This document shows, one piece after another, positions 1-13,341 of a stretch of DNA of 64,000 bases. Below the pieces are notes generated by a model, which was not told the DNA's origin, ran no database searches, and saw nothing but the letters and a program-made list of their open reading frames with translations. A program made the position numbers and the translations under genes. Each line of letters opens with the position of its first letter. Position 1 is the stretch's first letter. Source of the DNA: Clostridia bacterium (GTDB lineage: Bacteria; Bacillota; Clostridia; Oscillospirales; Acutalibacteraceae); the NCBI GenBank assembly GCA_017452785.1, contig JAFTLT010000051.1:26961-90960 (forward strand), in the 5' to 3' direction.

Positions 1-1004
1 GCGGCATAAACGGCAAAAAGCTGGAGCTTAAGGTTGTTGACAGCCTTGGCACTGCAGGCGGAGCGGCAACAGCAGCTCAGAAGCTGATAAATATGAATGT
101 GTGTGCTCTTACAGGTACGTATACAAGCGGCTCTGCACAGGTGGTTTCCCGTACAGCAGAAAAGTTTTCCGTACCCTTTGTTGTAACTGTTGCAGCAAGT
201 GAAACTCTGCTGACAAACGGCTATAAATATTCTTTCAGAATTCAGCCAAGCACAGTTACATTTTCACAGAACTTTATTGAATATATTCCTTCAATCAAAA
301 CAGACGATATGAAAACCGTAGCTATTATTTATGAGGACTCCAATTACGGTGCAGGTATTGCGGGATATATTGAAAAGAATATAGAAAAAACAGGTCTTGA
401 AATTATCGGGATGATTCCCTACAGTGCTTCGGCATCGACTCTCAGCTCAGAGGTAACAAAGCTGGTTGCACTGAGCCCAGATATTCTCATTCCCGTCGGT
501 TATTATTCAGACCAGAATCTGCTTGCAAAAGAGATTATAGACAGAGATGTTACCTTCCCAATGATTATGGGCGTTGCCAACGGTGCTTTTTCTGACGCAA
601 AGTTCACTGATACCTATGGTACTGCTGCAGACGGATTTTTTGATATAAACTATCGTTATAATCCTAACAGTGATGAGGCAGACTATTTGCTTAATAAATA
701 CCGTGAGCTTTACGGCGAGGAAATTCCCGTCTGTGCAATTTACGGCTATGAATCAATTATGGTTATTGCAGATGCTCTCAGGCGTGCAGGTACCGCAGAC
801 CATGAGGCATTAAGAGAAGCTCTGGCACAGATAAATATGACAGATCATCTGCTTCCTCAGAATGAAATTCTCTTTGATGAAGCAGGTGAAAATATCAATT
901 CTGCAGGCGTACTCATTCAGATTCAGAACGGTAAGCAGGTTATCGTTTATCCCAAGGAATATGCCGAAGGTGAAATCATAAGAAAAGGGGAGGGCAAAGA
1001 GTAA
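1..1004 (+). CDS. ABC importer substrate-binding protein, branched-chain amino acid type (5' end cut off)
   Basis: Extracellular solute-binding component (Peripla_BP_6, LivJ/UrtA class) of the importer encoded by the next four genes. The frame is already open at base 3, so the N-terminus and its presumed lipoprotein signal lie outside the window; 333 residues are visible. The open end reads GINGKKLELKVVDS, then AATAAQKL, which is the usual strand and helix of the first lobe in this family. The ligand cannot be fixed from sequence. The neighbouring hydantoinase and carbamoyl hydrolase make a ureido or hydantoin compound as plausible as leucine-type amino acids. The stop overlaps the next start (TAATG), so the two are translationally coupled. 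Confidence 0.9.
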   Translation, partial: GINGKKLELKVVDSLGTAGGAATAAQKLINMNVCALTGTYTSGSAQVVSRTAEKFSVPFVVTVAASETLLTNGYKYSFRIQPSTVTFSQNFIEYIPSIKTDDMKTVAIIYEDSNYGAGIAGYIEKNIEKTGLEIIGMIPYSASASTLSSEVTKLVALSPDILIPVGYYSDQNLLAKEIIDRDVTFPMIMGVANGAFSDAKFTDTYGTAADGFFDINYRYNPNSDEADYLLNKYRELYGEEIPVCAIYGYESIMVIADALRRAGTADHEALREALAQINMTDHLLPQNEILFDEAGENINSAGVLIQIQNGKQVIVYPKEYAEGEIIRKGEGKE

Positions 1005-1882
1005 TGAATATGCAGATTTTTCAGGCACTGCTTGACGGTGTGCTTATGGGCGGTGTTTATGCTCTTGCCGCTTTAGGTCTTTCTCTTATATTTGGTGTTA
1101 TGAAAATAACAAACTTTGCCCACGGCGCTATGATGACAGTCGGCATGTATACTGTTTATGTGGTGTCAACGGGTCTTGGCATAAGTCCTTATATTTCGCT
1201 GATATTCGCTGCAGTTACTCTTTTTGTGTTGGGATATGTTATTCAGCATTTTCTTATTGATAAAATCTCTCAGGCACCGACACACAATCAGCTGCTGCTG
1301 ACACTGGGTATTGCATATATTCTTGAAAACGGCTTGCTTGCAGTTTTCACACCTAACTATAAAACACTTGAGGTTGATGACTTTGAAGGCTCTATAAAGC
1401 TCGGTCAGATTACACTAAGCCCGGAAAAGTTAGTGGCTTTCGCAGTTGTGTTTGTTGTTACGGCTGTTATATATCTCATGCTTTACCGCACCCGTACCGG
1501 CAAGGCAATAAGAGCCTGCTCACAAAACAGAGAAGGCGCTCAGCTTATGGGCATTGTTATAAAAAAGACAAATGCAATCGCTTTCGGTATCGGTGCTCTT
1601 TGCACAGGTATTGCAGGTGCATTGCTCACACCTATACTCAGCATTTATCCCACCTTGGGTGAAACCTTTCAGCTCAAGTGCTTTGTTATAGCTATCTTAG
1701 GCGGTATGGGTAACCTTTGGGGTGCTCTCATATCAGGTCTTATTGTTGGTGTTGTTGAGTCTGTAACAGGTTATGTTGCAGGTGGCAGCTGGAGTGACCT
1801 TACGGTTTATGCTGCATTTATACTCATTCTTCTTGTTAAACCATCAGGACTTTTCGGAAGGAGTAATCGCCGTGAACACTAA
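1004..1882 (+). CDS. livH: ABC transporter permease LivH type
   Basis: Inner-membrane permease of the LivH family (BPD_transp_2), 292 residues, the normal family length. It is a multi-pass hydrophobic protein. The N-terminal GVYALAALGLSLIFGVMKITNFAHG stretch (split by helices, around residues 17-40) and the later ILGGMGNLWGALISG motif (around 228-243), which contacts the ATPases, are both diagnostic of LivH. It pairs with LivM to form the channel. The start overlaps the binding-protein stop by one base. Confidence 0.93.
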   Translation: MNMQIFQALLDGVLMGGVYALAALGLSLIFGVMKITNFAHGAMMTVGMYTVYVVSTGLGISPYISLIFAAVTLFVLGYVIQHFLIDKISQAPTHNQLLLTLGIAYILENGLLAVFTPNYKTLEVDDFEGSIKLGQITLSPEKLVAFAVVFVVTAVIYLMLYRTRTGKAIRACSQNREGAQLMGIVIKKTNAIAFGIGALCTGIAGALLTPILSIYPTLGETFQLKCFVIAILGGMGNLWGALISGLIVGVVESVTGYVAGGSWSDLTVYAAFILILLVKPSGLFGRSNRREH

Positions 1883-2837
1883 AAAAATTAATCGCATAAC
1901 CTTAACGGCACTGCTTGTTCTCGGCCTGATATTTCCCTTCTTTGCCGATTACTATGTGCTTTGCATAGGCATAAATGTGCTCATTGCAGCACTCTTGGGT
2001 CAGAGCTGGAATATAATGAGCGGATATGCAGGTCAGTTCTCTTTCGGCCATGCCGTTTTCTTTGGCATAGGTGCCTACACATCAACTGCACTTTACACAA
2101 TGTTTGGCGTCACTCCGTGGCTGGGCATGATTATCGGTGCAGGTGTGGCTGCGGCAGTCGGTGCAATAATAGGCTTTCTCTCGTTCAGATATAAGCTCAG
2201 AGATGACTATTTTGCACTTGCTACTCTTGCCTTTGCAGAAATTTTCCGCATACTTGTCAATAACACAAAAAGTCTCGGCGGTGCAACGGGCATACTTATT
2301 CCCTATTTGCAAAATCCCATGGAATATCAGTTCGCAAGTGATAAAACCTACTATTATGTAATTCTTATTTTTGTTGCTCTTGCAACTGTTTATATTGCAC
2401 TTATGTCAAAAAGCAAGCTCGGTCTCAACCTTGTTGCTATCAAGGGCAATCAGGAGGCAGCTGCAGCATTGGGTGTCAATGTGCTGAAATATAAGCTTAT
2501 TGCTATTTCCTCATCGGCAGCCTTTGCAGCACTTGCAGGCACATTCTATGCTCAGTATTACGGCTTTATTGACCCGTCTATTGTGTTTGCATCCTCAATT
2601 TCCGTTGAGGCTATTGTGCCTTGTATTATCGGCGGCAGCGGCACACTTTACGGACCGCTCCTCGGCGCACTGCTTATTATTCCTCTGCAGGAGATCTGTA
2701 ACTCTCTGTTCACATCAATCAGCGGTGTCAATATGATTGTGTACGGGGCAGTTATCGTTGCCTTTATACTTTTCTGCCCCGACGGAATTTTTGGAAGAAT
2801 TATGAAAATCAAGGGTAAGAAGGGGGCAAAGAAATGA
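1872..2837 (+). CDS. livM: ABC transporter permease LivM type
   Basis: Second membrane subunit of the importer (LivM family), 321 residues from the chosen start. The open frame extends upstream to 1773, but that lies deep inside livH with no ribosome site. The GTG at 1872 has AAGGAG about 8 bases upstream and gives a normal LivM N-terminus (MNTKKINR then a membrane helix), so it is preferred. Family motifs seen are SGYAGQFSFGHAVFFGIGAY near residue 50 and the GGSGTLYGPLLGA coupling motif near residue 257. It overlaps livH by 11 bases and livG by 4 (ATGA). Confidence 0.92.
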   Translation: MNTKKINRITLTALLVLGLIFPFFADYYVLCIGINVLIAALLGQSWNIMSGYAGQFSFGHAVFFGIGAYTSTALYTMFGVTPWLGMIIGAGVAAAVGAIIGFLSFRYKLRDDYFALATLAFAEIFRILVNNTKSLGGATGILIPYLQNPMEYQFASDKTYYYVILIFVALATVYIALMSKSKLGLNLVAIKGNQEAAAALGVNVLKYKLIAISSSAAFAALAGTFYAQYYGFIDPSIVFASSISVEAIVPCIIGGSGTLYGPLLGALLIIPLQEICNSLFTSISGVNMIVYGAVIVAFILFCPDGIFGRIMKIKGKKGAKK

Positions 2838-3556
2838 TTTTACTTGAAGCTAAGGATGTCTGCAAATATTTCCACGGCAATAAAGCAGTGGATATGGTAA
2901 ACATGACAATCAATGAGGGCGAAATAGTAGGTCTTATCGGCGCCAACGGTGCAGGAAAAACAACCTTTTTCAACTGCCTTACCGGTTACTATAAAGCCAC
3001 AAGCGGCACAATTGCCTTTATGGGCAAAAGCATTGAAAAGGCAAAGCCCCATGTCATATGTAAAATGGGTGTGGGCAGAACCTTTCAGATAGCAAAGCCC
3101 TTCCACGGCCTTTCAGTGCTTGAAAACACTGTGGTGGGCGCTTATAATAAATGCAAGACCAAGTCTGACGCGTACAAAAAAGCAAGAGAATGCATCGACT
3201 TCACCGGTCTCGGCGATAAAGAAGGTCTTGATGCTGCAAGCCTTAACACAGGCGAGCAGAGACGACTTGAGCTTGCCCGTGCTCTTGCAACTCAGCCTAA
3301 GCTGCTTTTACTTGACGAGGTTATGGCGGGGCTCACTCCCACAGAATCGGCAGAAATGGTTGAGCTTATCAGAAAAATCAGAGATTCGGGTGTAACAATA
3401 CTGATGATTGAGCACATAATGCCTGCTCTTATGTCACTTTCAGACACGGTTTATGTTCTCGATCAGGGCAGACTCATAAGCAAGGGTACCCCTGAGGAAG
3501 TGTCTGCCGATAAGCAGGTTATCGAGTCTTATCTCGGCAAAAGTGCGGAGGTGTAA
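2834..3556 (+). CDS. livG: ABC transporter ATPase LivG type
   Basis: Cytoplasmic ATP-binding subunit, 240 residues. Walker A is GANGAGKTT at residues 36-44. The signature is LNTGEQRRLELARAL, the LivG-style variant rather than a canonical LSGGQ. Walker B is LLLLDEVMAGL, again the LivG-specific form. It forms a heterodimer with LivF and powers LivHM. The ATGA overlap with livM indicates translational coupling. Confidence 0.94.
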   Translation: MILLEAKDVCKYFHGNKAVDMVNMTINEGEIVGLIGANGAGKTTFFNCLTGYYKATSGTIAFMGKSIEKAKPHVICKMGVGRTFQIAKPFHGLSVLENTVVGAYNKCKTKSDAYKKARECIDFTGLGDKEGLDAASLNTGEQRRLELARALATQPKLLLLDEVMAGLTPTESAEMVELIRKIRDSGVTILMIEHIMPALMSLSDTVYVLDQGRLISKGTPEEVSADKQVIESYLGKSAEV

Positions 3557-3560
3557 ATAA

Positions 3561-4265
3561 ATGCTCCAGATTAAAAATCTTTTTGTCGGCTACGGCAAAG
3601 TAACTATAATTCAGGATTTATCAATGAAAATAGACAGCGGCGAGGTTGTGGCTCTCATCGGTGCCAACGGTACGGGTAAGACTACTCTTGTAAGAGCAAT
3701 CTCAAAGCTCAATACAGTCAGCGGCGGCACAATCACCTTTGACGGTGAGAATATAACCGATCTTTCACCTGATAAAATCGTGGAAAAAGGCATTATTCAG
3801 GTGCCTGAGGGAAGAAAGCTTTTCGCTCAGATGAGCGTCAGAGAAAATCTTGAAATGGGTGCCTTTACCAAAAGAGCGAGAGTGAATGAAAAGGAAAATT
3901 TAGAGTATGTTTACTCTGTTTTCCCTGAGCTGAAAGCTATGGAAAAGCAGGCCTGCGGCAACCTCAGTGGCGGACAGCAGCAGATGGTTGCTATAGGCAG
4001 AAGCATTATGGCTGAGCCGAAGCTGCTCATTCTTGACGAGCCGTCAATAGGTCTGTCACCCATAACAACACAGCATATGTTTGAAGCCATAAGAACAATA
4101 AATAAAAAAGGTATTTCCATTCTCATCACAGAGCAGAATGTGCAGGATGTGCTTAAAATGGCAAACAGAGCCTATGTTATGCAGCAGGGCAAAATTGTGC
4201 TCAGTGGCAAGGCTCAGGAAATATCAAAAAGCGAAGAGCTTAAAAAAATATATTTAGGAATGTAA
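3561..4265 (+). CDS. livF: ABC transporter ATPase LivF type
   Basis: Partner ATPase of LivG, 234 residues. Walker A GANGTGKTT lies at about residues 33-41, the canonical signature LSGGQQQM at about 135-142, and Walker B LLILDEPSIGL follows. The IIQVPEGRKLFAQMSVRENL stretch is typical of LivF. The gap to livG is four bases, and GGAGGTG overlapping the livG end serves as its ribosome site. It completes a five-gene importer; no terminator is visible before the downstream hydrolase genes. Confidence 0.94.
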   Translation: MLQIKNLFVGYGKVTIIQDLSMKIDSGEVVALIGANGTGKTTLVRAISKLNTVSGGTITFDGENITDLSPDKIVEKGIIQVPEGRKLFAQMSVRENLEMGAFTKRARVNEKENLEYVYSVFPELKAMEKQACGNLSGGQQQMVAIGRSIMAEPKLLILDEPSIGLSPITTQHMFEAIRTINKKGISILITEQNVQDVLKMANRAYVMQQGKIVLSGKAQEISKSEELKKIYLGM

Positions 4266-4284
4266 AAGAAAGAAGGAAATCATT

Positions 4285-4977
4285 ATGCATGCATGGGAAG
4301 ATTGTTTAACTGATGTTGACAGAATTGTTATTGAAAAGGGTCACTACGGTCAGCCCCGTGGCTTCGGCAAAAAGCCTCTTTTGCTGATAATTGACCTTCA
4401 GCCAAACTATATCGGTGCTGATATGCCTATTGAAGACCAGCTTGACGAATGGCCTTCAGGCGGCGGTGAGGCTTGCTGGACAGGTGTGAGAAGAATTCTT
4501 TCACTGCGTGACGTGGCAAGAGAATGCGGTGTGCCCATTTTTTACACGAGAAATGTGCAGAATGCAACCAATGCCTTTGACAGCTTTGCCACAAAGACAA
4601 AGCGTGACCAGACAAAGTATATCGACGGTGCACCTGAGGCAGACCTGCTTGACTGTGTTAAGCCTCTGCCCAATGAAATGATTATCCCAAAAAGCTACGC
4701 AAGTGCATTTTACGGCACACCGCTTCAGAGCTATCTTGTTAAATTAGGCATTGACACTGTTATTATTGTCGGCGGCTCAACAAGCGGCTGCTGCAGAGCA
4801 ACTGCAGTTGATGCTGTTACAAGAAACTACAACCTCGGCTATGTTGAGGATTGTCTTTTCGACCGTATCACAATTTCACACAAGGCTGCACTTCTTGATG
4901 TGTGGATGAAGTACGGCGATGTTGTAGACAGCGATTATGTGAAGGAATACTTCTACAGCCTTAAAGAGGAGAAATAA
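4285..4977 (+). CDS. Isochorismatase-family amidohydrolase, N-carbamoylsarcosine amidase-like
   Basis: Cytoplasmic cysteine hydrolase of the isochorismatase fold, 230 residues. The catalytic triad can be read: Asp37 in LLIIDLQPNY, Lys136 in IPKSYASAFYGT and Cys169 in GGSTSGCCRATAVDA. The KxxASAFxGTxL block, the TSGC-x-RATAVDA loop and the late SHKAALLDVWMKYGDVV block resemble N-carbamoylsarcosine amidase and maleamate amidase more than isochorismatase proper. Those enzymes release ammonia and CO2, or ammonia, from a carbamoyl or amide substrate. It sits two bases before a hydantoinase-like gene, which would make exactly an N-carbamoyl compound. The real substrate is not known. Confidence 0.82.
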   Translation: MHAWEDCLTDVDRIVIEKGHYGQPRGFGKKPLLLIIDLQPNYIGADMPIEDQLDEWPSGGGEACWTGVRRILSLRDVARECGVPIFYTRNVQNATNAFDSFATKTKRDQTKYIDGAPEADLLDCVKPLPNEMIIPKSYASAFYGTPLQSYLVKLGIDTVIIVGGSTSGCCRATAVDAVTRNYNLGYVEDCLFDRITISHKAALLDVWMKYGDVVDSDYVKEYFYSLKEEK

Positions 4978-4979
4978 TT

Positions 4980-6362
4980 ATGAAAAAACTCATCAAAAAC
5001 GGTACCGTAGTATTTGAGCACGAAGAAAAAAAGGTTGATCTTCTCATTGACGGCGAAAAAATTTCAGCCATACTTGCTCCCGGCTCATATGAGGGCGAAG
5101 CTGAAATAATTGATGCCGAGGGACTTTATGTTATGCCCGGTACCATTGACCCCCATATGCACTTAGGTCTTTATAAGCCTCTTGGTGATGCCTTCAGATA
5201 TGACACACCCCGTCAGGCTATAGGCGGTCTGACAACTCTTATCAACTATCACAGGGGCAAGGGCAACTACTTTGAAACTGTCAAGGAAGCCATAGACGAT
5301 GGCGAAAACAACTCTCTTGTGGACTTTGCCATTTCCCTTGGTCTGTGCGCAAAGGTGCATCTTAAACAGATTGAAGGCTATATTGAAGAATTAGGTATCA
5401 CTTCTTTCAAGTTTTTCTTCGATAAGCAGGATATAGCACATCTTTTCTATGATATTCCCAAAGAAGAAGCCCTCACTCTTGATAAGGCTGACCTTTACTA
5501 TATTTTAAAGCAGCTTCGTGAGATTTCACCAAAACTTCTTCTTTGCGTTCACTGTGAAGACCCTGATGTTTTCCGTGCCCTTGAAAGAGAGCTCAAGGAA
5601 AAGGATATCAACAAATATTCCCTTGCAAATTTCGGTAAGACAAGACCCACCTTTGTTGAAACAGCCTGTGTTGCTGACTCAATGTGGATAAACAGTGTTG
5701 TTGACGGTAATATGTACGTGGTACACACAGCGGCAGGCAGCACCGTTGAAATGTATGAAACTCTCAAGGCGAAATTCGGTGGCAATGTAACTCTCGAAAC
5801 CTGTCCGCAGTATCTTACTCTCACAGACGAAGCCGAGGCAGGACTTCTTGCTAAGGTTAATCCGCCGCTTCATGCACAAAGTGACATCGAAGCCCTTTGG
5901 GAGGGTATAAGAAACGGCAGTGTCAAGACTATGGGCACAGATAATGTGCCTGTTGACAAGGCTAAGAAATATGAGCGTGGTGACGATATCTGGGGTGTTT
6001 ATGTCGGCTTTGGCGGCCCCGGCATGATATTGCCCGTGCTTCTTAGTGAAGGCTATCATAAGAGGAATATTCCTCTTCACACACTCTCTCAGGTTAACAG
6101 CATCAACACAGCAAGAATTTTCGGCCTTGAAGACAAGGGTGAAATTGCCATAGGCAAAGATGCTGACCTTGCAATTGTTGACTTAGACCTTGAACGCACA
6201 ATCACACCTGAGCTTTTCGGTTACAGTGATTTTTCAATTTATGAGGGCATGACCTTCAAGGGTTGGCCGAAATACACTCTTTCAAGAGGTGAGGTTATTC
6301 AGAAAGATGGAGTTATCACTGCTGAGTGCGGCAGAGGCAAATATATAAGAAGAAGCATTTAA
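4980..6362 (+). CDS. Hydantoinase/dihydropyrimidinase-family cyclic amidohydrolase
   Basis: Metal-dependent cyclic amidase (amidohydrolase superfamily, D-hydantoinase/dihydropyrimidinase/allantoinase group), 460 residues, the normal length. All expected metal ligands are visible: His59 and His61 in DPHMHLG, Lys144 in TSFKFF (the carbamylated lysine), His191 in CVHCED, His249 in VVHTAAGS and Asp321 in GTDNVP. It should open a ring such as hydantoin or dihydropyrimidine to an N-carbamoyl acid, which the preceding hydrolase could cleave. The exact ring is undetermined; dihydroorotase is unlikely because no pyrimidine synthesis genes are present. It is the last gene of the transporter operon, before a hairpin at 6381-6422. 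Confidence 0.85.
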   Translation: MKKLIKNGTVVFEHEEKKVDLLIDGEKISAILAPGSYEGEAEIIDAEGLYVMPGTIDPHMHLGLYKPLGDAFRYDTPRQAIGGLTTLINYHRGKGNYFETVKEAIDDGENNSLVDFAISLGLCAKVHLKQIEGYIEELGITSFKFFFDKQDIAHLFYDIPKEEALTLDKADLYYILKQLREISPKLLLCVHCEDPDVFRALERELKEKDINKYSLANFGKTRPTFVETACVADSMWINSVVDGNMYVVHTAAGSTVEMYETLKAKFGGNVTLETCPQYLTLTDEAEAGLLAKVNPPLHAQSDIEALWEGIRNGSVKTMGTDNVPVDKAKKYERGDDIWGVYVGFGGPGMILPVLLSEGYHKRNIPLHTLSQVNSINTARIFGLEDKGEIAIGKDADLAIVDLDLERTITPELFGYSDFSIYEGMTFKGWPKYTLSRGEVIQKDGVITAECGRGKYIRRSI

Positions 6363-6380
6363 CTTAATATTCTTAAATAA

Positions 6381-6422
6381 AACGGGTGTTTTTAAGCTGT
6401 AACGGCTTAGAGATGCCCGTTT
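6381..6422 (+). terminator. Hairpin after the hydantoinase gene
   Basis: The AAACGGG and CCCGTTT arms enclose a second AAGC/GCTT pairing, followed by TTGTAAATTATTG. It lies 19 bases after a stop codon and before a good promoter. It is probably a terminator separating the transporter operon from the PrpD operon, though the T-run is weak. Confidence 0.45.
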
Positions 6423-6460
6423 GTAAATTATTGCATTTTGTTAAAAATAGCTGAAAAATC

Positions 6461-6489
6461 TTGCTTTTAGGTTTTTGCTGTGTTAAAAT
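6461..6489 (+). promoter_or_regulatory. Sigma-A promoter for the PrpD/Dlt-like operon
   Basis: TTGCTT (6461-6466), a 17-base spacer, then TAAAAT (6484-6489) with an extended TG at 6481-6482. It stands 40 bases before the PrpD start, so that gene and the following acylation genes can be expressed independently of the upstream transporter. Confidence 0.6.
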
Positions 6490-6528
6490 TAGGATTGGTG
6501 TATTTTGCGATGAAAGGTAAAAGACGAA

Positions 6529-7884
6529 ATGATACACGCAACAAAGATATTAAGTGAATTTTCATATAATCTGAAATATGAAGATCTGCCTCCCGAAGTG
6601 GTGGAAACCACCAAGAAGTATATTGCAGACTATTATGCCGCCGCTTTCGCAGGCCTAAAGGTCAACACTGCATTTAACAATGCGGTTAATGAGGTTATTC
6701 TTGATATGGGCGGCAAGCAGGAGTGCGACTTCATATTTTCGCAAGAGCGACTTCCTGCACCTAATGCAGCATTTCTCAGTGCCTGCTATGCACACGGTGC
6801 TGATATGGATGACGGCAACCGTAAGGCTATGGGTCATGTGGGTGCTCATGTTATTTCTGCTGTGCTGACTCTCAGCCAGATTTTGCCGATAAACGGCAAG
6901 GATATTATCACTGCAATTAATGTTGGCTATGAGGTTTATAACAGAGTTGCTGCAGCAGTGCAGCCGGGACTCGTGCACAGAGGCTTTCATTCAACGGGTA
7001 CTGCGGGAGCAATTGCCTGCGGTGCAGCTGCGGCAAAGCTCATGGGTATGGATGAAGAGGGTATATATAACACAATGGCACTTTCGGCAATTCAGGCAAG
7101 CGGACTTATTATCATTGCCGAAAGCGGACAGTGCTGCAAGCCGATAAATCCTGCCAATGCGGCTAAAACAGGCATAATCTCCGCAAGAATTATTGCAAAG
7201 GGAATAAAAAGCTCGGAATTTCCGCTTGAAAGCAAAAAAGGCTTTTTTCACGCTATGAGTGATGAGCTTGACGAAAGAATGATAATCGACGATCTGGGCG
7301 AAACCTTCACAATCTGTGAAAGCTATATGAAGCCATATCCCTCATGCAGACACACTCACTGCGGCATAGAGTGCGCACTGAAAATAAGAGAAGAGCTTCC
7401 CGAAAACGCCGATATAAAAGAAGTCAGAGTTTATATTTATAAAAATGCAATTGATATAGCAGGGCAGATTGAAGTGCCCAAGATCAATGACGATGCCAAA
7501 TTTTCAGTGCATTATTCTTTGGCTGTGGCTCTTTTAAGGGGACACTTCGGTCTTGACGACCTTGATATATCAAAGGCTGATGATGAGCTTATCAGGCTGA
7601 TTTATTCAATTAAGCTTATAGAAGACCCGTCAATGGAAAAGCGTGACGAGGGAATAAGAGGCTGCAGAGTGGTTGTCATTCTCAGTGATGGCAGTGAATA
7701 TGAAAAGACAGTCCTCATCCCCTTAGGCGATGCTGCAAATCCTCTGTCGTGGGATGACATAAGAGAAAAGCTGAGTTTATGCAGTCAGGGGCTGATAAGT
7801 GAAGCTCAGCAAAGCACACTTATAAAAAATATCAATTCTTTAGAAAACTGTGACAGTATAAAAACAATCAACCTTTATAATTAA
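6529..7884 (+). CDS. MmgE/PrpD family protein
   Basis: Cytoplasmic enzyme of the MmgE/PrpD superfamily (2-methylcitrate dehydratase, cis-aconitate decarboxylase, iminodisuccinate epimerase), 451 residues, the usual length. Family signatures are AHGADMDDGNRKAMGHVGAHV around residue 87, GYEVYNRVAAAVQP around 127, HSTGTAGAIACGAAAAKLMG around 154, and YPSCRHTHCGIE around 268. The actual reaction cannot be told from sequence. No citrate synthase or methylisocitrate lyase is adjacent, so propionate catabolism is not supported. It is the first gene behind the 6461 promoter and is 16 bases before the AMP ligase, so it may make or modify the acid that the ligase activates. Confidence 0.85.
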   Translation: MIHATKILSEFSYNLKYEDLPPEVVETTKKYIADYYAAAFAGLKVNTAFNNAVNEVILDMGGKQECDFIFSQERLPAPNAAFLSACYAHGADMDDGNRKAMGHVGAHVISAVLTLSQILPINGKDIITAINVGYEVYNRVAAAVQPGLVHRGFHSTGTAGAIACGAAAAKLMGMDEEGIYNTMALSAIQASGLIIIAESGQCCKPINPANAAKTGIISARIIAKGIKSSEFPLESKKGFFHAMSDELDERMIIDDLGETFTICESYMKPYPSCRHTHCGIECALKIREELPENADIKEVRVYIYKNAIDIAGQIEVPKINDDAKFSVHYSLAVALLRGHFGLDDLDISKADDELIRLIYSIKLIEDPSMEKRDEGIRGCRVVVILSDGSEYEKTVLIPLGDAANPLSWDDIREKLSLCSQGLISEAQQSTLIKNINSLENCDSIKTINLYN

Positions 7885-7900
7885 AAAGGAGGACGGTTAA

Positions 7901-9361
7901 ATGACATCAATAGTTTCTGCATTGGCAAAGTACGCTGAGGAAAGACCTGACAGAGTAGCAGTCATTGCAAATGATAATAAAATCACCTACGGTGAGCTTT
8001 GGAAAGAGGTTCAGGGCTTTGCTGCATATATCGGCTCTTTCGGTTTTGAGAAAGGCTCAAGAATTATTGTAAAGTCCGACTCAGATATCTGGTTTGCTGT
8101 TTCATGCATGGCTATACATCTCAGCGGTAACACTCATGTACCCCTTGAAAAAACAATCGGTGTGGGCGGTCTTGAGGATGTTGCATCACAGCTGAGCGCT
8201 TCAATGGTCATTTCAAACATCGAAGCAAACGGCGAGTTTACATTAGTTGACTCTGCAAAGGTGCGTGAGCTCGGCAGAGAATATTACAAAGAAGGACTTG
8301 AGATTTCCTTCCCCACAAGCGATATGACCTGCGACATTATGTTCACCACAGGCACCACAGGCAAATCAAAGGGCGTTGCCGTGTCACACAGGGCTGTTGT
8401 TGCTGTTTCAGAAAATGTTCAGTACGGCGCGGGCATCATTGAGGATAATGTTTACCTCGTTCCCGCCCCCATAAATCATGCCTCAGCTATAAGAAAGCTT
8501 TATGTGAGCATTCTCACAGGCACAACAGTTGTGCTGCTTGACGGCTTTAAGGATATAAGAAAGTTTTATAAATGCATTGAGGATTACGGTGTAACATCAA
8601 TTCTTATGCCTCCTGCAGCAGTAAGAATGTTGCTTCTTCTTTCAAAGAAACAGCTTGCAAAATATTCCTCACAGCTTCATCACATTCACACAGGTTCTGC
8701 CGCATTCCCTGAGGCTGACAAAGAAACCCTATGCCAGATTTTGCCCGAAACAAAGCTCTATTTTGCTTACGGCTCGTCTGAGGCGGGCTGCGTGAGTATG
8801 TTTGACTATTCACAGCACAAGGGCCTTATCAGCTGTGTGGGCAAGCCAAACAAAAACGCTCATATTTTTATCGTTGACGACGACCGCAAGGAAATTAAGT
8901 CAAGCAAAACCAATCAGGGTCTCATTGCTATAAGCGGCGATATGACAATGCAGGGCTATTATAACGAGCCTGAGCTGACTAAAGAGGTGCTCGTTGACGG
9001 TGTGGTTTACACCAATGATATGGGCTATATCGACGATGATGGCTTTGTCTATATGCTTGGCAGACGTGGTGACGTTATCAGCATAGGCGGTCTTAAAATT
9101 GCCCCTACAGAGGTGGAAAACATTGTTCTTCGCTTTCCGGGAATTGCAGAGTGTGCATGCTTTGCAGTTGAGGACAGAATGGGCGGCTGTGTGCCGAAGC
9201 TCAATATTGTTGAGCAGAAGGGTGCAGATGTTGACATAACAGAGCTTAAAAAGTTTATGGCTCAGTATCTGGAGGCATTTAAGGTGCCAAAGCTCGTTGA
9301 AAAGACTGATGAAATTCCCAAAACTGCAAACGGTAAAATTAACCGTAAGGTTCTCAGGTGA
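7901..9361 (+). CDS. AMP-dependent acyl/amino-acid ligase (adenylation enzyme)
   Basis: ANL-superfamily adenylate-forming enzyme, 486 residues, close to the length of DltA or stand-alone ligases. The P-loop FTTGTTGKSKGVAVSH is at about residue 147. FAYGSSEAG is the A5 motif, GRRGDVISIGGLKIAPTEVE covers the A7/A8 hinge, and KTANGKINRKVL at the C-terminus carries the catalytic lysine. It should activate a carboxylic or amino acid with ATP and load it on the carrier protein encoded 77 bases downstream. Ribosome site AAAGGAGG. Substrate unknown; by gene order it fills the place of DltA, but residues fixing D-alanine cannot be confirmed by eye. Confidence 0.87.
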   Translation: MTSIVSALAKYAEERPDRVAVIANDNKITYGELWKEVQGFAAYIGSFGFEKGSRIIVKSDSDIWFAVSCMAIHLSGNTHVPLEKTIGVGGLEDVASQLSASMVISNIEANGEFTLVDSAKVRELGREYYKEGLEISFPTSDMTCDIMFTTGTTGKSKGVAVSHRAVVAVSENVQYGAGIIEDNVYLVPAPINHASAIRKLYVSILTGTTVVLLDGFKDIRKFYKCIEDYGVTSILMPPAAVRMLLLLSKKQLAKYSSQLHHIHTGSAAFPEADKETLCQILPETKLYFAYGSSEAGCVSMFDYSQHKGLISCVGKPNKNAHIFIVDDDRKEIKSSKTNQGLIAISGDMTMQGYYNEPELTKEVLVDGVVYTNDMGYIDDDGFVYMLGRRGDVISIGGLKIAPTEVENIVLRFPGIAECACFAVEDRMGGCVPKLNIVEQKGADVDITELKKFMAQYLEAFKVPKLVEKTDEIPKTANGKINRKVLR

Positions 9362-9371
9362 GCCCATGCTA

Positions 9372-9400
9372 TTGACAATATGGAAATAATAATATAAACT
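9372..9400 (+). promoter_or_regulatory. Possible internal promoter before the carrier-protein gene
   Basis: TTGACA (9372-9377), 17 bases, then TAAACT (9395-9400). It sits in the 77-base gap between ligase and carrier protein and could give the last three genes extra transcription. The -10 is only fair. Confidence 0.35.
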
Positions 9401-9438
9401 ATTAAGGTGAGATATAACAAAAATTTAAGAGGTGCAAA

Positions 9439-9669
9439 ATGGAAAAATTACTTGAAATTCTCGGACAGATAAGAAGCGACATCGATTTCACTAAAGAAAC
9501 AACACTCGTTGATGACGGTGTGCTTGATTCATTTGACATTGTTTCAATCGTAAGTGAGCTGACAATGGAATATGATATTGATATTTCTATTGATGATATG
9601 ACAGCTGAAAACTTCAACAGTGCTGAAGCTATGCACGAAATGATTCTCAGAATTCAGGACGAGGACTGA
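9439..9669 (+). CDS. Acyl carrier protein, DltC-like
   Basis: Small acidic carrier protein, 76 residues. The phosphopantetheine attachment site is Ser31 in the DSFDIVSIV motif, preceded by DDGVLD. This DxVLDSFD form is the one seen in DltC-type D-alanyl carriers and stand-alone PCPs rather than the DSL of fatty-acid ACP. It should carry the acid activated by the upstream ligase to the membrane acyltransferase encoded next. Ribosome site AAGAGGTG, 8 bases before the ATG. Confidence 0.87.
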   Translation: MEKLLEILGQIRSDIDFTKETTLVDDGVLDSFDIVSIVSELTMEYDIDISIDDMTAENFNSAEAMHEMILRIQDED

Positions 9670-9729
9670 TAAAATTTACCGTAAGCAGCTTGGAAAAACA
9701 GCTGCTTATGTGTGTTAAGGAGTAATAAT

Positions 9730-11340
9730 ATGGCTTATACGTCATTAGGATTTCTTGGCTTTTTAGGGCTTGTTATACTGGTTTACTACCTTGTGCCTAA
9801 AAAATATCAGTGGGCGGTGCTGCTCACGGCGAGCTATATCTTCTATCTTTTCAGCGGTGTGGCTCAGCTTGCTTTTATTCTCGGCACAACAGTGGTGACA
9901 TATGTTTCAGCCTTGCTTATGCAAAAAAAGCGTGATGCCTATAAAGCAGAATTGGCAGCAATAGGCCCGGACATAACAAGAGAAAAAAAGCAGGAGCTTA
10001 AAAAGACAGCAGGAAACAAAATCCGCAGAGTGCAGTTTGCATCTGTTATAGCAGTGCTTCTTGTGCTTGCAGTTGTGAAATATCTCAACTTTGCAATTGA
10101 GAGCACCAACACAATTTTTAATGTGTTTAACATTGATGCTTACTTGTCTCCCGTTGAAAAAATGATAGTTCCCTTGGGCATTTCATTCTATTCATTTCAG
10201 GCTATGGGTTATCTTATTGACATCGGCAGAGGCAGATATGCTGCAGAAAAGCATTTCGGCAGACTGGCACTCTTCCTGTCATTCTTCCCCACAATTGTGC
10301 AGGGACCTATCAACCGTTACGGCGATCTGGGTGCACAATTCAATAAAGAGCACAGCTTCGATTATGATAATCTGAAATTCGGTGCACAGCTTATGCTCTG
10401 GGGCTTCTTTAAAAAGATGGTTATTGCTGACCGTGCCGCACCGGCAGTGGCTGCGATTTTCGGCAGCAACTATGCAGACTATAACGGTTCGGTTTATTTC
10501 TTCGGCATGCTTATGTATGTTCTGCAGATTTACTGCGACTTCTCAGGCGGCATCGATATAGCAAGGGGTGCTGCACAGACTTTAGGCTTCAATCTGCCGC
10601 AGAACTTTGAAAGACCCTATTTCTCAACAAGTGTTGCAGATTATTGGCGCAGGTGGCACGCCACTCTTGGCGCATGGATGCGTGAATATGTGTTCTATCC
10701 CGTCATGCTCTCAAAGCCACTGACAAAAATAAGCAAGGCACTGAGAAAATCCGGTAAGGCAAAGCTGGCTAAGTTAGTACCCTCAGTAGTGACACCCTTT
10801 GTGGTTTTCTTCCTTATAGGTATATGGCACGGAGCTAACTGGAAATATGTTGCTTTCGGTTTATATAATGCCACAATAGTTGCAGGCAGTGTTGCTCTTG
10901 CGCCCGTTTTCAAAAAGGCAATAGAAAAGCTTCATATAAACACTGAGGCCTTTAGCTGGAAGCTTTTTACAATAGTGCGCACCTTCCTTGTGCTCGGCAT
11001 ATCAAAAATACTTGTCAAATCACCGGGTCTTAAGGCTGCACTTCACATAATAAAGAGCATTTTCACCGAGGTGGATTTAGACTTTGTCTTTGGCCTCGAC
11101 GGAAAGATTTTCTCTTTGGGTATTGATGAAAAGAATATGTTTGTGCTCTTTGTTGCAGTTCTTATCCTTTTAGGTGTCAGCGTTCTGCAGGAAAATGGCA
11201 TGAAGATGCGTGAAACCCTGTCAAAGCAGAATATAGTTTTCCGTTGGGCAGTGTATTTTATAGCTCTGATATTTGTGCTTGTTTTCGGCATTTACGGACC
11301 TGCCTATGATGCCGCAGACTTTATCTACGGGGCTTATTAA
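9730..11340 (+). CDS. MBOAT family membrane O-acyltransferase (DltB/AlgI-like)
   Basis: Multi-pass membrane acyltransferase, 536 residues. The frame extends to a GTG at 9712, but AAGGAG at 9717-9722 lies 7 bases before the ATG at 9730, which is therefore the start. The MBOAT hallmark IGIWHGANWKYVAFGLYNA holds the conserved His367. A second conserved histidine is His310 in YWRRWHATLGAWMREYVFYP. FPTIVQGPINRY and QIYCDFSGGIDIARG are further family blocks. It would move the acyl group from the carrier protein across the membrane toward a polymer or glycan outside. DltB and AlgI are the closest known roles. Confidence 0.9.
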   Translation: MAYTSLGFLGFLGLVILVYYLVPKKYQWAVLLTASYIFYLFSGVAQLAFILGTTVVTYVSALLMQKKRDAYKAELAAIGPDITREKKQELKKTAGNKIRRVQFASVIAVLLVLAVVKYLNFAIESTNTIFNVFNIDAYLSPVEKMIVPLGISFYSFQAMGYLIDIGRGRYAAEKHFGRLALFLSFFPTIVQGPINRYGDLGAQFNKEHSFDYDNLKFGAQLMLWGFFKKMVIADRAAPAVAAIFGSNYADYNGSVYFFGMLMYVLQIYCDFSGGIDIARGAAQTLGFNLPQNFERPYFSTSVADYWRRWHATLGAWMREYVFYPVMLSKPLTKISKALRKSGKAKLAKLVPSVVTPFVVFFLIGIWHGANWKYVAFGLYNATIVAGSVALAPVFKKAIEKLHINTEAFSWKLFTIVRTFLVLGISKILVKSPGLKAALHIIKSIFTEVDLDFVFGLDGKIFSLGIDEKNMFVLFVAVLILLGVSVLQENGMKMRETLSKQNIVFRWAVYFIALIFVLVFGIYGPAYDAADFIYGAY

Positions 11341-11355
11341 GGGAGGAATAAAACT

Positions 11356-12417
11356 ATGAAAAATAAAAAGTTAGTTCGCTCTCTTGTGTTTGCAGTGCTT
11401 GTGTTTGCACTTTTGCTCACTCTTTGTGATTTATTTGAATATAACAATGACCACTCTTCTCAGCGTCTTCAGACCTATCAGGATCTTGACAGAAACTCCG
11501 TCGATGCCCTCATTCTCGGCACAAGCGGCATGGATCGCTTCTGGATTGGTGCAAAGGCATATGAGGAGCACGGAATGACGGTGTACCCCATAACGGTTGA
11601 AGCTATGCCCTCGTGGGTTACAATCCCCATGCTCAAAGAGGCAACAAAAAGACAAAACCCCAAAGTGGTGGTTGTTGACCTTCGTTCATTTGTGGGTGAT
11701 TATCCCAGCAATTCAACTAAATTTGACATTCATTCAAGACGAGCAATTGATATACTGGACTTCTTTTCACTGACAAGATTTGAGGCTATAGCCAACACTC
11801 ACAAGACCATCCGTCTGGCGGAGGTTGAGGATGCACCTGTGATAGACCTGTCATATTTCCTGACATTTATCAGGTACCACGGAATGTGGGAAGAGGACGG
11901 CTTCTCATTTGATGAACTGAAAAATCCCAAGTCAAAATATATGGGCTTTTATATGCATCCCACATGGACAGTGAGTCCCATGGTCGATTACACACCTACG
12001 GTTGACACTGACGAGAGAATACCTCTTGAGCCTCTTTGTCAGTATTGGCTCGACGAATTCCTCAGCTACACCGAAAAGCAGGATTACGAGGTCATGTTTA
12101 TGCAGACACCGAGTACCCGCACAAGAAACGAAGCAGGCAGACTCAACACCCTCAAGGATTATCTCACCGAAAAGGGCTATGAATGTCTGGTGCTCGACAT
12201 TGACGAAAACATTTATGACCTTGAGACAGATTTTTACAATGACGGTCATGTCAACTATTACGGTGCTGAAAAATTCACTGAATGGTTTGCGAAATATCTC
12301 AAGGAAAATTATGAACTGCCCGACCGCAGAGGCGACGAGAAGTGCGAGGATTGGGAAGGCGTTTATGATGTGATTAAGGATCAGGTTAAGGTTTACGAGG
12401 AAAGCCTTGCAAAATAA
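11356..12417 (+). CDS. Membrane-anchored SGNH/AlgJ-DltD-like acyl transfer protein
   Basis: 353 residues with one N-terminal membrane helix (about residues 8-27) and an extracellular domain. The motif ALILGTSGMDRFW (around residue 50) fits block I of SGNH hydrolases with the nucleophilic serine, and FYNDGHVNYYGAEKF (around 293) fits the Asp-x-x-His block that ends the catalytic triad. Such proteins work next to MBOAT enzymes (DltB with DltD, AlgI with AlgJ/AlgX) and finish transfer of the acyl group outside the cell. It is 15 bases after the MBOAT gene and ends the operon. I cannot tell DltD from AlgJ type by sequence alone. Confidence 0.78.
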   Translation: MKNKKLVRSLVFAVLVFALLLTLCDLFEYNNDHSSQRLQTYQDLDRNSVDALILGTSGMDRFWIGAKAYEEHGMTVYPITVEAMPSWVTIPMLKEATKRQNPKVVVVDLRSFVGDYPSNSTKFDIHSRRAIDILDFFSLTRFEAIANTHKTIRLAEVEDAPVIDLSYFLTFIRYHGMWEEDGFSFDELKNPKSKYMGFYMHPTWTVSPMVDYTPTVDTDERIPLEPLCQYWLDEFLSYTEKQDYEVMFMQTPSTRTRNEAGRLNTLKDYLTEKGYECLVLDIDENIYDLETDFYNDGHVNYYGAEKFTEWFAKYLKENYELPDRRGDEKCEDWEGVYDVIKDQVKVYEESLAK

Positions 12418-12435
12418 TTTTATATGTACTTTTTT

Positions 12436-12558
12436 GCCTTCCCCTATGGTAGGGGAAGGTGTCACAAAGTGACGGATGAGGTGAGTTTAGATGAACTTAT
12501 AGCAACCTCATCCGACTGCCTGACGGCAGCCACCTTCCCCTTCAAAAAAGGGGAAGGC
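12436..12558 (+). repeat. Palindromic interspersed repeat, copy A
   Basis: 123-base element with nested inverted repeats. The outer arms are GCCTTCCCC and GGGGAAGGC. Inner AGGTG/CACCT and GATGAGGT/ACCTCATC arms flank a central TTTAGATGAACTTA and a small TGCC-TGAC-GGCA hairpin. It is nearly identical to copy B on the far side of the DUF559 gene; differences are confined to the first loop and two point changes. A partial third copy is at 45311-45358. Confidence 0.9.
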
Positions 12559-12599
12559 TTTTTGTGTGCGTGACGATATGTAATAAAGGTTGTGTGAAT

Positions 12600-12962
12600 A
12601 TGGATAAAATGCATAACAAAAACCTAATACCAAATGCAAAAGAACTCAGAAAAAATATGACACCGCAAGAAAGACATTTATGGTATGATTTCTTAAAGAG
12701 TTTGCCTGTAACAGTAAAGCGTCAGCAAGTAATAGGCAAATACATAGTTGATTTTTACATTGCAAAAGCAAATTTAGTTATTGAAATTGACGGTTCGCAG
12801 CATTATGAAGAGAAAAGCCAAAAAAACGATGCAGTTAGGGATGAATATCTGGGCGGTTTTGGGTTGAAGGTAATGAGATTTTCAAACTATGATATAAACA
12901 CTAATTTTGATGGCGTTTGTCAGATGATATGGCATTATGTTTTTGATATTTGCAAAGTGTAA
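12600..12962 (+). CDS. DUF559 (Vsr-like) endonuclease-fold protein
   Basis: 120 residues, full length for the family. Visible family blocks are LRKNMTPQERHLWYDFL (around residue 20), RQQVIGKYIVDFY with the catalytic-type Asp, LVIEIDGSQHYE with the Glu-x-Asp pair and His, and GLKVMRFSN at the C-terminal side. DUF559 shares the very-short-patch-repair/PD-(D/E)XK-like endonuclease fold; its biological role is not established. The ATG at 12600 follows AAAGG at a normal distance; the upstream GTG at 12564 lies against the repeat and has no ribosome site. The gene is framed by two copies of one palindromic repeat, unlike any other gene here. Confidence 0.88.
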   Translation: MDKMHNKNLIPNAKELRKNMTPQERHLWYDFLKSLPVTVKRQQVIGKYIVDFYIAKANLVIEIDGSQHYEEKSQKNDAVRDEYLGGFGLKVMRFSNYDINTNFDGVCQMIWHYVFDICKV

Positions 12963-12977
12963 GTAGTAACCGACTTA

Positions 12978-13098
12978 GCCTTCCCCTCTCAGGGGAAGGT
13001 GTCACGAAGTGACGGATGAGGTGAGTTTAGATGAACTTACAGCAACCTCATCCGACTGCCTGACGGCAGCCACCTTCCCCTTCAAAAAAGGGGAAGGC
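12978..13098 (+). repeat. Palindromic interspersed repeat, copy B
   Basis: 121-base second copy in the same orientation as copy A, beginning 16 bases after the DUF559 stop. The right 90 bases differ from copy A at only two positions. The first loop is CTCTCAG instead of CTATGGTAG, both of which preserve pairing of the CCCC/GGGG arms. Confidence 0.9.
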
Positions 13099-13154
13099 TA
13101 TTTATTTTTTTACACAAATCCCCTAAATATATTCAAAAAATATTCACATAAATA

Positions 13155-13183
13155 TTGACGAAAAATGCACTTAGTGGTATTAT
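13155..13183 (+). promoter_or_regulatory. Sigma-A promoter of the giant secreted protein
   Basis: TTGACG (13155-13160), 17 bases, then TATTAT (13178-13183). A second TATAAT lies at 13191-13196 without a clear -35. It implies a leader of roughly 150 bases before the ATG at 13342. Confidence 0.65.
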
Positions 13184-13189
13184 TATTAT

Positions 13190-13341
13190 GTATAATTGGA
13201 GTCGTATACTCGACTTTAGAAACAATAGGTTTGAGGCGATTTTTCTTCATCGGCAAAAAGCGCAGGGAGGTCAGTTGCGCTCGGTGAAAAAGGACTGCTG
13301 AAAGCCAAAAAACTACATCTTATTAAGGAGATGATATTTTT
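13190..13341 (+). promoter_or_regulatory. Long structured 5' leader, unassigned
   Basis: The leader holds a perfect 6-bp hairpin AGCGCA/TGCGCT (13259-13264 with 13276-13281). This is nested inside a 7-bp stem formed by TTCATCG at 13246-13252 and CGGTGAA at 13282-13288, with a purine-rich internal side CAAAA. The ribosome site AAGGAG at 13325-13330 lies 40 bases beyond. It resembles a regulatory RNA in layout but matches no riboswitch consensus I know. Confidence 0.4.

Follow-up and report, generated by a model that had tools for sequence, protein, structure and literature searches.

A Dlt-like operon headed by an MmgE/PrpD enzyme in a gut Clostridia bacterium, a candidate system for surface acylation with a dicarboxylic acid

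D-alanylation sets the surface charge of Gram-positive bacteria and affects their resistance to cationic peptides. The stretch analysed in this study (the window, 64,000 nucleotides in length) comes from a Clostridia bacterium of the family Acutalibacteraceae and carries an operon in which an MmgE/PrpD enzyme (PrpD) is followed by an AMP-forming ligase, a carrier protein, a membrane-bound O-acyltransferase (MBOAT) and an SGNH-like protein. An F-x-Y-x-x-F motif serves as acyl shuttle, on the microprotein DltX in Dlt and on the MBOAT itself in carrier-less pathways, as given in the available part of PMC12148441. Asp197 of Bacillus cereus DltA hydrogen-bonds the amino group of D-alanine (PMC8972799, available in part). 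According to the accessible portion of PMC12290011, known MmgE/PrpD members use a 1,4-dicarboxylate backbone, methylsuccinate isomerase has the free acid as its substrate instead of the CoA ester, and Bacillus subtilis IRG1 probably has a different, unknown function. With a probability of roughly 55%, we read the operon of the window as a Dlt-like surface acylation system that loads a non-amino-acid carboxylic acid, most likely a substituted 1,4-dicarboxylic acid, instead of D-alanine.

All five open reading frames (ORFs) of the operon were verified on the forward strand (6529-12417), and the first four products exceeded Pfam cut-offs. The genes are those named by an earlier note made from the sequence alone. 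Its Ser31 of the carrier was confirmed, and its His310 and His367 of the MBOAT are correct when counted from the ATG at 9730, which is a likelier start than the GTG. Intergenic gaps, taken from the ORF coordinates, are 16, 77, 60 (to the MBOAT ATG) and 15 bp. The host is a gut bacterium; the closest named kin compared, L038 and L039, are Clostridia metagenome-assembled genomes from goat caecum and sheep rectum. The operon and its signals are as follows.

6380..6422, + strand: terminator-like hairpin downstream of the hydantoinase gene (6374-6440: -27.4 kcal/mol, z -6.57)
6461..6489, + strand: promoter-like site TTGCTT-N17-TAAAAT, conserved in L038 and L039
6529..7884, + strand: MmgE/PrpD enzyme (PF03972 E 4.2e-52, PF19305 E 3.5e-35)
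7901..9361, + strand: AMP-forming acyl ligase of acyl-CoA-synthetase type, PINHASAIRK motif (PF00501 E 2.9e-57; PF13193)
9372..9400, + strand: second promoter-like site TTGACA-17-TAAACT (promoter scan; conserved in three genomes)
9439..9669, + strand: DltC-like acyl carrier protein, Ser31 in DSF (PF00550, 21.4 bits against a cut-off of 20.8)
9712..11340, + strand: DltB-like MBOAT O-acyltransferase, H316 and H373 from the GTG, C-terminal FIYGAY (PF03062; 6bug E 5.3e-24)
11356..12417, + strand: membrane-anchored SGNH-like protein, Ser57 and His298, hydrophobic N-terminus (invariant motifs; weak fold match)

Judged from the ligase sequence, the loaded acid is very likely not D-alanine, which is what the earlier note had supposed for this set of ligase, carrier, MBOAT and SGNH protein. 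The best NCBIfam model of the ligase was PRK06187 (acyl-CoA ligase) with 274 bits, under its cut-off; amino-acid adenylation reached 162 bits and DltA 157. Six Dlt-linked ligases of the order scored 295-352 bits on amino-acid adenylation, five of them over its cut-off, and five of the six scored 271-311 bits on DltA, where none came up to the cut-off of 560 bits. Missing the latter cut-off is no test, because the checked Dlt-linked ligases of the order miss it too; in the genome of the window every gene stays below it. The window ligase and 18 relatives (19 rows, two of which are one locus) were aligned with 37 Dlt-linked ligases of the order, which were named "DltA-like" by a similarity of >150 bits to L103_10 and six of which were those checked with NCBIfam. 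In the family motif P-[ILM]-[NS]-H the His was kept in 19/19 rows, and five residues on there was Arg in 18/19 and Lys in one. The column after the motif His contained Asp in 30 of the 37 Dlt-linked ligases (Ser in 5, Ile in 2) and in 0/19 rows of the ligase family. We infer that this column is that of DltA Asp197, the alignment containing no solved DltA; the window ligase does not have the DltA-type Asp for the amino group of D-alanine, and its substrate would have no amino group at the equivalent place. The conserved Arg may bind a second carboxylate, and the C-terminal region, with GGxK, is of acyl-CoA-synthetase type. Assignment of the ligase as DltA was rejected on the model scores and the missing Asp.

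The ligase type was rare. It was found at E <= 1e-60 in 7/200 genomes of the family, the window's own included, and at E <= 1e-75 in 5/394 genomes of the order and 5/391 of the class, with the own genome counted each time. At one polysaccharide-like locus an ORF of 829 amino acids (L165:7455-9944) fuses a hexapeptide-repeat transferase region to a ligase of the window type, as seen with Pfam.

Eighteen ligase loci, drawn from the family, order and class samples, were compared with 57 control MBOAT loci from the order sample. The order held 75 MBOAT rows outside the own genome, and the 60 neighbourhoods taken comprised the controls and the ligase loci L099, L100 and L111. By tblastn the MBOAT was present in 57/57 controls, and 37/57 also had an amino-acid-type Dlt ligase. 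A gene for a DASS or TRAP DctM transporter was found in 7/18 ligase loci (L025, L030, L031, L033, L099, L111 and L166) versus 0/57 controls (Fisher p 1.6e-5), the ligase loci being not all independent because L031 and L111 have the same arrangement. At E <= 1e-8 neither DASS nor DctM had any match in the 57 controls. For the ligase loci with an MBOAT the count was 4/12 against 0/57 (p 5.7e-4). The stretches averaged 14.4 kb in the ligase loci and 17.1 kb in the controls. Pfam assigned the L099 and L166 genes to DctM and those of L025, L031, L033 and L111 to domains of citrate/sulfate-symporter type (DASS). Because of these transporters and the dicarboxylate-binding residues of PrpD given below, the evidence points to a dicarboxylate.

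Of the 12 ligase loci with an MBOAT, four have DASS or DctM, three (the window, L038 and L039) have PrpD with an importer and a hydantoinase, and five have neither. One ligase locus, L035, is a distant member of the family (30% identity). Ligase loci L165, L166 and L167 sit among polysaccharide-like genes, and at L169 the ligase adjoins a CDP-glycerol glycerophosphotransferase-type gene (Pfam); neither setting was seen at L029. The genome of the window has two CDP-glycerol glycerophosphotransferase matches, which we count in favour of surface acylation.

PrpD contains both domains of its family (PF03972, 177 bits; PF19305, 122 bits; cut-offs 32.1). Its best solved matches were B. subtilis "IRG1" (7e-31), IDS epimerase (2e-26) and cis-aconitate decarboxylase (1e-23). 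Six carboxylate-binding or catalytic residues, matched by alignment to the residues that PMC12290011 gives for IDS epimerase, were each kept in 29/29 subfamily rows (H89, D92, H103, H154, K204 and K268). As a candidate for 2-methylcitrate dehydratase PrpD was rejected, with 33-47 bits against NCBIfam equivalog cut-offs of 458-950. The transporters, the PrpD residues and the PrpD neighbourhoods together suggest that the loaded acid is probably a dicarboxylate handled by PrpD.

A scan with a two-sequence PrpD alignment against 84,980 species genomes gave 31 loci, in which very near kin were possibly left out. The five-gene order together with the upstream set was recovered in two of the 31, L038 (PrpD 85% identical) and L039 (75%), and the SGNH gene of L039 was found whole by tblastn. 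The order is thus more than chance. In the remaining 29 loci (L040-L068) no MBOAT was seen; in L047, which lies on the same contig as L025, the window ligase type was near PrpD. Neighbourhoods were counted over 30 loci, the window and L038-L066. Surface-polymer genes were present in 15/30, where the window, L038 and L039 have only the MBOAT and L042 and L044 only a glycosyltransferase match, and a carboxylate-activating ligase, either the window AMP ligase type or ATP-grasp, was also present in 15/30. A DASS, DctM or ABC importer occurred in 16/30 (L065, left out of the tallies, adds one), and importer with hydantoinase in 7/30. Five loci (L040, L041, L048, L049 and L055) are of polysaccharide type, with a DegT-like aminotransferase and ATP-grasp adjoining PrpD. 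Neighbours were labelled by tblastn matches to single proteins (>80 or >70 bits), with Pfam or NCBIfam run on examples (DASS, DctM, ATP-grasp, DegT, CN hydrolase, phosphonopyruvate decarboxylase, flippase, GT2 and CDP-glycerol polymerase). The RmlA, RmlB, GT4 and priming-transferase labels are names that we presume from the appearance of the sequences.

The three rows of the window clade (100/100) group in the PrpD tree with L040/L041 (89/87, not starred), and the remaining importer loci form a six-row group (99/97), one row of which, L053, shows no importer. From the tree and the neighbourhoods, PrpD proteins with an adjoining importer fall into two parts of the tree and have differing gene orders, and acid-activating genes adjoin PrpD more widely. 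A phosphonopyruvate-decarboxylase-like gene was noted in the PrpD loci L050, L055-L058 and L061-L063, with ATP-grasp in 7/8; in L056 the phosphonopyruvate decarboxylase was over the NCBIfam cut-off and was followed by weakly CitE-like and TtdB-like genes. Such loci perhaps represent a pathway for an unusual acid.

Hairpins lie between the hydantoinase gene and PrpD in the window, L038 and L039 (z -6.57, -7.51 and -6.91), alike in position and unlike in sequence. Directly after the hairpin comes the promoter-like site at 6461-6489, which is kept in L038 and L039 and scores under the threshold of a simple promoter scan. Because a hairpin and then a conserved promoter-like site precede PrpD in three genomes, PrpD seems to head its own transcription unit together with the ligase. 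The site upstream of the carrier gene (9372-9400) is kept in L038 and reads TTGACT-17-TAAAAT in L039. The earlier note had seen one promoter for the operon; the site that it placed before PrpD is conserved, and the account is incomplete because of this second conserved promoter-like site before the carrier gene.

The best NCBIfam model of the carrier was DltC (32.5 bits, under the cut-off of 68), and with Ser31 in DSF the protein counts as DltC-type. The MBOAT is of DltB type, with matches to 6bug (E 5.3e-24) and 8jem (E 5.8e-24) and 146.5 bits on TIGR04091, under the cut-off of 375. Its C-terminus, FIYGAY, corresponds to the DltX-type acyl-shuttle motif, fused to the enzyme with no separate microprotein, the last residue being Tyr and not Phe. 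F-x-Y-x-x-(F/Y/L/I/M/W) was found in the last 40 residues of 12/12 ligase-linked MBOATs and of 33/46 other MBOAT rows, and a carrier co-occurs with an MBOAT-fused shuttle motif here as in many Dlt-like loci of the order. The SGNH-like protein had no match in Pfam (E <= 0.001), NCBIfam or PDB sequences, and a DltD match, a weak one, was obtained for one of seven aligned SGNH-like proteins (E 0.11). G55, S57, H298 and N300 (G-x-S and H-x-N) were invariant in 7/7 aligned sequences, the window's included. With a low-confidence model (pLDDT 54.1), Foldseek ranked TesA-type SGNH hydrolases 1-11, the best at E 0.0086 and none at E <= 0.001. The invariant motifs and this ranking fit an SGNH fold, and the anchored SGNH-like protein of the earlier note is supported to that extent.

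Upstream of the operon (1-6362) lie an importer and two amidohydrolases, with a LysR-like gene shortly ahead of the window start. The five-gene account of the locus had the genes right and had missed this set.

1..1004, + strand: branched-chain-amino-acid-type ABC importer solute-binding protein, 5' end before the window (PF13458 E 1.3e-28; full ORF G000:C40:26762-27964)
1004..4265, + strand: LivH-, LivM-, LivG- and LivF-like ABC permeases and ATPases (PF02653 twice, PF00005 twice)
4285..4977, + strand: isochorismatase-fold amidohydrolase, best solved match N-carbamoylsarcosine amidohydrolase (PF00857 E 1.2e-29; 26st E 1.5e-27)
4980..6362, + strand: hydantoinase/dihydropyrimidinase/allantoinase-like amidohydrolase (PF01979; 3sfw E 1.7e-51)

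Relatives of the importer are also present in L038 and L039 and, adjoining PrpD, in L042, L044, L046, L052 and L066. The hydantoinase-like protein was below the cut-off for all NCBIfam models among the 25 matches listed. At E <= 1e-140 a hydantoinase was found in 0/390 other genomes of the class, a count that is uninformative on its occurrence without PrpD.

The following route is proposed. The importer might take up a cyclic ureide, imide or amide, from which the hydantoinase-like and N-carbamoylsarcosine-amidase-like enzymes would release the free acid; this step is tentative. With fair probability the free dicarboxylate would then be isomerised, dehydrated or decarboxylated by PrpD. The ligase, by its enzyme class, would adenylate the acid and load it onto Ser31 of the carrier. 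By analogy with Dlt and PatA/PatB, the acyl group would cross the membrane via the C-terminal Tyr539 of the MBOAT, and the SGNH protein would transfer it to a hydroxyl group on a surface polymer. In a half-ester one carboxylate would stay free, so that the surface would become more negative, the opposite of D-alanylation.

Several observations weigh against this reading. The top solved match of the ligase was an amino-acid-activating domain of a nonribosomal peptide synthetase (6mfy, E 6.3e-52), and the AlphaFold model of the ligase, built from 4 sequences, was poor (pLDDT 42.5). The L030 transporter is a fragment of 97 amino acids under the Pfam cut-off, and the transported anion is not fixed, since DASS proteins also match citrate and sulfate transporter models. 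DASS or DctM is absent from 8/12 and PrpD from 9/12 ligase loci with an MBOAT. The controls came from the order alone, whereas the wider class sample contributed four of the ligase loci (L166-L169), and the Fisher values overstate independence because the loci are related. In the alignment with B. subtilis IRG1 the second-base Tyr of the epimerases, which is present in 7/29 PrpD subfamily rows, is V149 in the window, and because of this Val no single reaction is assigned to PrpD. The five-gene order is confined to three genomes, the window's included; 26/30 PrpD loci are without the window ligase type and 27/30 without an MBOAT. The closest solved kin of the two amidohydrolases are N-carbamoyl-amino-acid or hydantoin enzymes, so their product would be an amino acid and not a diacid. 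Finally, in L042, L044, L046, L052 and L066 the same importer adjoins PrpD and acylation genes are missing, and for this reason PrpD may serve catabolism.

The last point bears on an unlikely alternative, in which there are two neighbours and not one pathway: PrpD would end the importer-amidase-hydantoinase set, and the acid of the acylation operon would come from elsewhere. The PrpD relatives of those five loci (51-60% identity) adjoin a hydantoinase as well in four of the five cases, the L066 contig ending inside the importer; the second promoter-like site could drive carrier, MBOAT and SGNH genes by itself, and most ligase loci with an MBOAT do without PrpD. However, the hairpin and the promoter-like site group PrpD with the ligase and not with the hydantoinase in three genomes, where the spacing between PrpD and ligase is 16, 29 and 32 bp. 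The tree places the window clade with L040/L041, which have polysaccharide genes, DASS and ATP-grasp, and not with the importer/hydantoinase group, and in the genome G056 relatives of PrpD and of the ligase lie ~6 kb apart on opposite strands. Because it is absent from nine of the 12 ligase loci with an MBOAT and stands beside the importer without acylation genes in five loci, PrpD is an optional supplier and not a core part of the ligase and MBOAT system. The earlier proposal that PrpD makes or remodels the loaded acid keeps its basis in a PrpD that comes first in an apparent shared unit in three genomes, and does not extend to the system in general.

As to the acid itself, a drifted Dlt operon performing ordinary D-alanylation, or loading another amino acid with a divergent ligase, is very improbable. 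The MBOAT, carrier and SGNH protein are Dlt-like, an amino-acid-type Dlt ligase accompanies the MBOAT in most controls, and the adenylation domain heads the solved matches of the ligase; against this, no row of the ligase family has Asp in the amino-binding column, the GGxK region is of acyl-CoA-synthetase type, the model scores favour acyl-CoA ligases, and the ligase type is linked to DASS and TRAP genes. Rather improbable, too, is surface acylation with a monocarboxylic acid, short or aromatic for instance, with the DASS and TRAP genes of the relatives serving other needs. The next solved matches of the ligase were feruloyl-CoA synthetase and MenE, and 4-coumarate ligase and oxalate-CoA ligase were also among them; the feruloyl and coumarate enzymes would suit a monocarboxylate, though MenE and oxalate-CoA ligase are diacid ligases. 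In addition, 11/18 ligase loci have no DASS or TRAP gene within the stretch covered. On the other side stand the lack of such genes in all 57 controls, the 1,4-dicarboxylates used by known PrpD members (PMC12290011, in the part available) and the conserved Arg after the motif His.

The source assembly (G000) has 74 contigs and 2.44 Mb, with 89.8% completeness and 3.6% contamination. Its contig G000:C69:1-5057 is a 99.98% copy of window positions 6069-11125 over the entire 5057 bp. This is probably a redundant contig, a simpler explanation than a true duplication at such identity, and the latter was set aside. After the operon, 13342-24834 encodes a predicted secreted protein of 3830 amino acids with many Cys-rich repeats. 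A palindromic element of ~120 bp flanks a DUF559 gene (12564-12962), with copies at 12438-12557 and 12977-13097; its 28-base core has 17 matches in the genome at <=2 mismatches, and a reversed control has 0. An Rfam scan of positions 1-14000 gave 0 matches at gathering scores.

It is conceivable, though we hold it with less than even confidence, that Dlt-like systems of one class attach dicarboxylic acids, obtained via DASS or TRAP transporters or from imported cyclic amides, to the surface polymers of gut Clostridia and so add negative charge in place of the positive charge of D-alanylation, with one MmgE/PrpD subfamily preparing the acid both for carrier-MBOAT-SGNH esters and for ATP-grasp amides on amino sugars. 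If carrier-based attachment of a diacid is true, the Dlt architecture would be a device for acyl export in general, with its cargo set by the ligase; the diacid route would also link imported organic acids to the chemistry of the surface, and a PrpD subfamily that is so far uncharacterised would gain a function. What the ligase loads onto the carrier can be tested directly in vitro with this pair of proteins. Among the literature matches listed, represented largely by the openings of abstracts, no description of the combination of PrpD with a Dlt-like set was found, and on PrpD with MBOAT or with hydantoinase only unrelated work was found.

The Dlt pathway (DltA, DltB, DltC, DltD and DltX) resembles the operon in that an AMP ligase, a carrier, an MBOAT and an SGNH-like protein stand side by side and the MBOAT aligns with solved DltB. 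It differs in that the window ligase is without the amino-binding Asp and scores below the checked Dlt-linked ligases of the order on the DltA and amino-acid models, that the shuttle motif is here on the MBOAT C-terminus, and that PrpD comes first. PatA/PatB and related MBOAT-SGNH acyltransferases share the C-terminal F-x-Y-x-x-F/Y of the MBOAT and the SGNH partner; they use an acyl-CoA donor and no carrier protein (PMC12148441, in the part available), whereas the window operon encodes a carrier and a ligase. With the known MmgE/PrpD enzymes (methylsuccinate isomerase, IDS epimerase, cis-aconitate decarboxylase and 2-methylcitrate dehydratase) PrpD of the window has both Pfam domains and the six residues in common; it differs from them in lying far below the 2-methylcitrate dehydratase cut-offs, in the absent second-base Tyr and in its surface-acylation partners. 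The polysaccharide loci with ATP-grasp and DegT (L040, L041, L048, L049 and L055) have the same PrpD subfamily, and DASS in 4/5. In contrast to the operon of the window, the acid would there form an amide with an amino sugar, without MBOAT/SGNH transfer.

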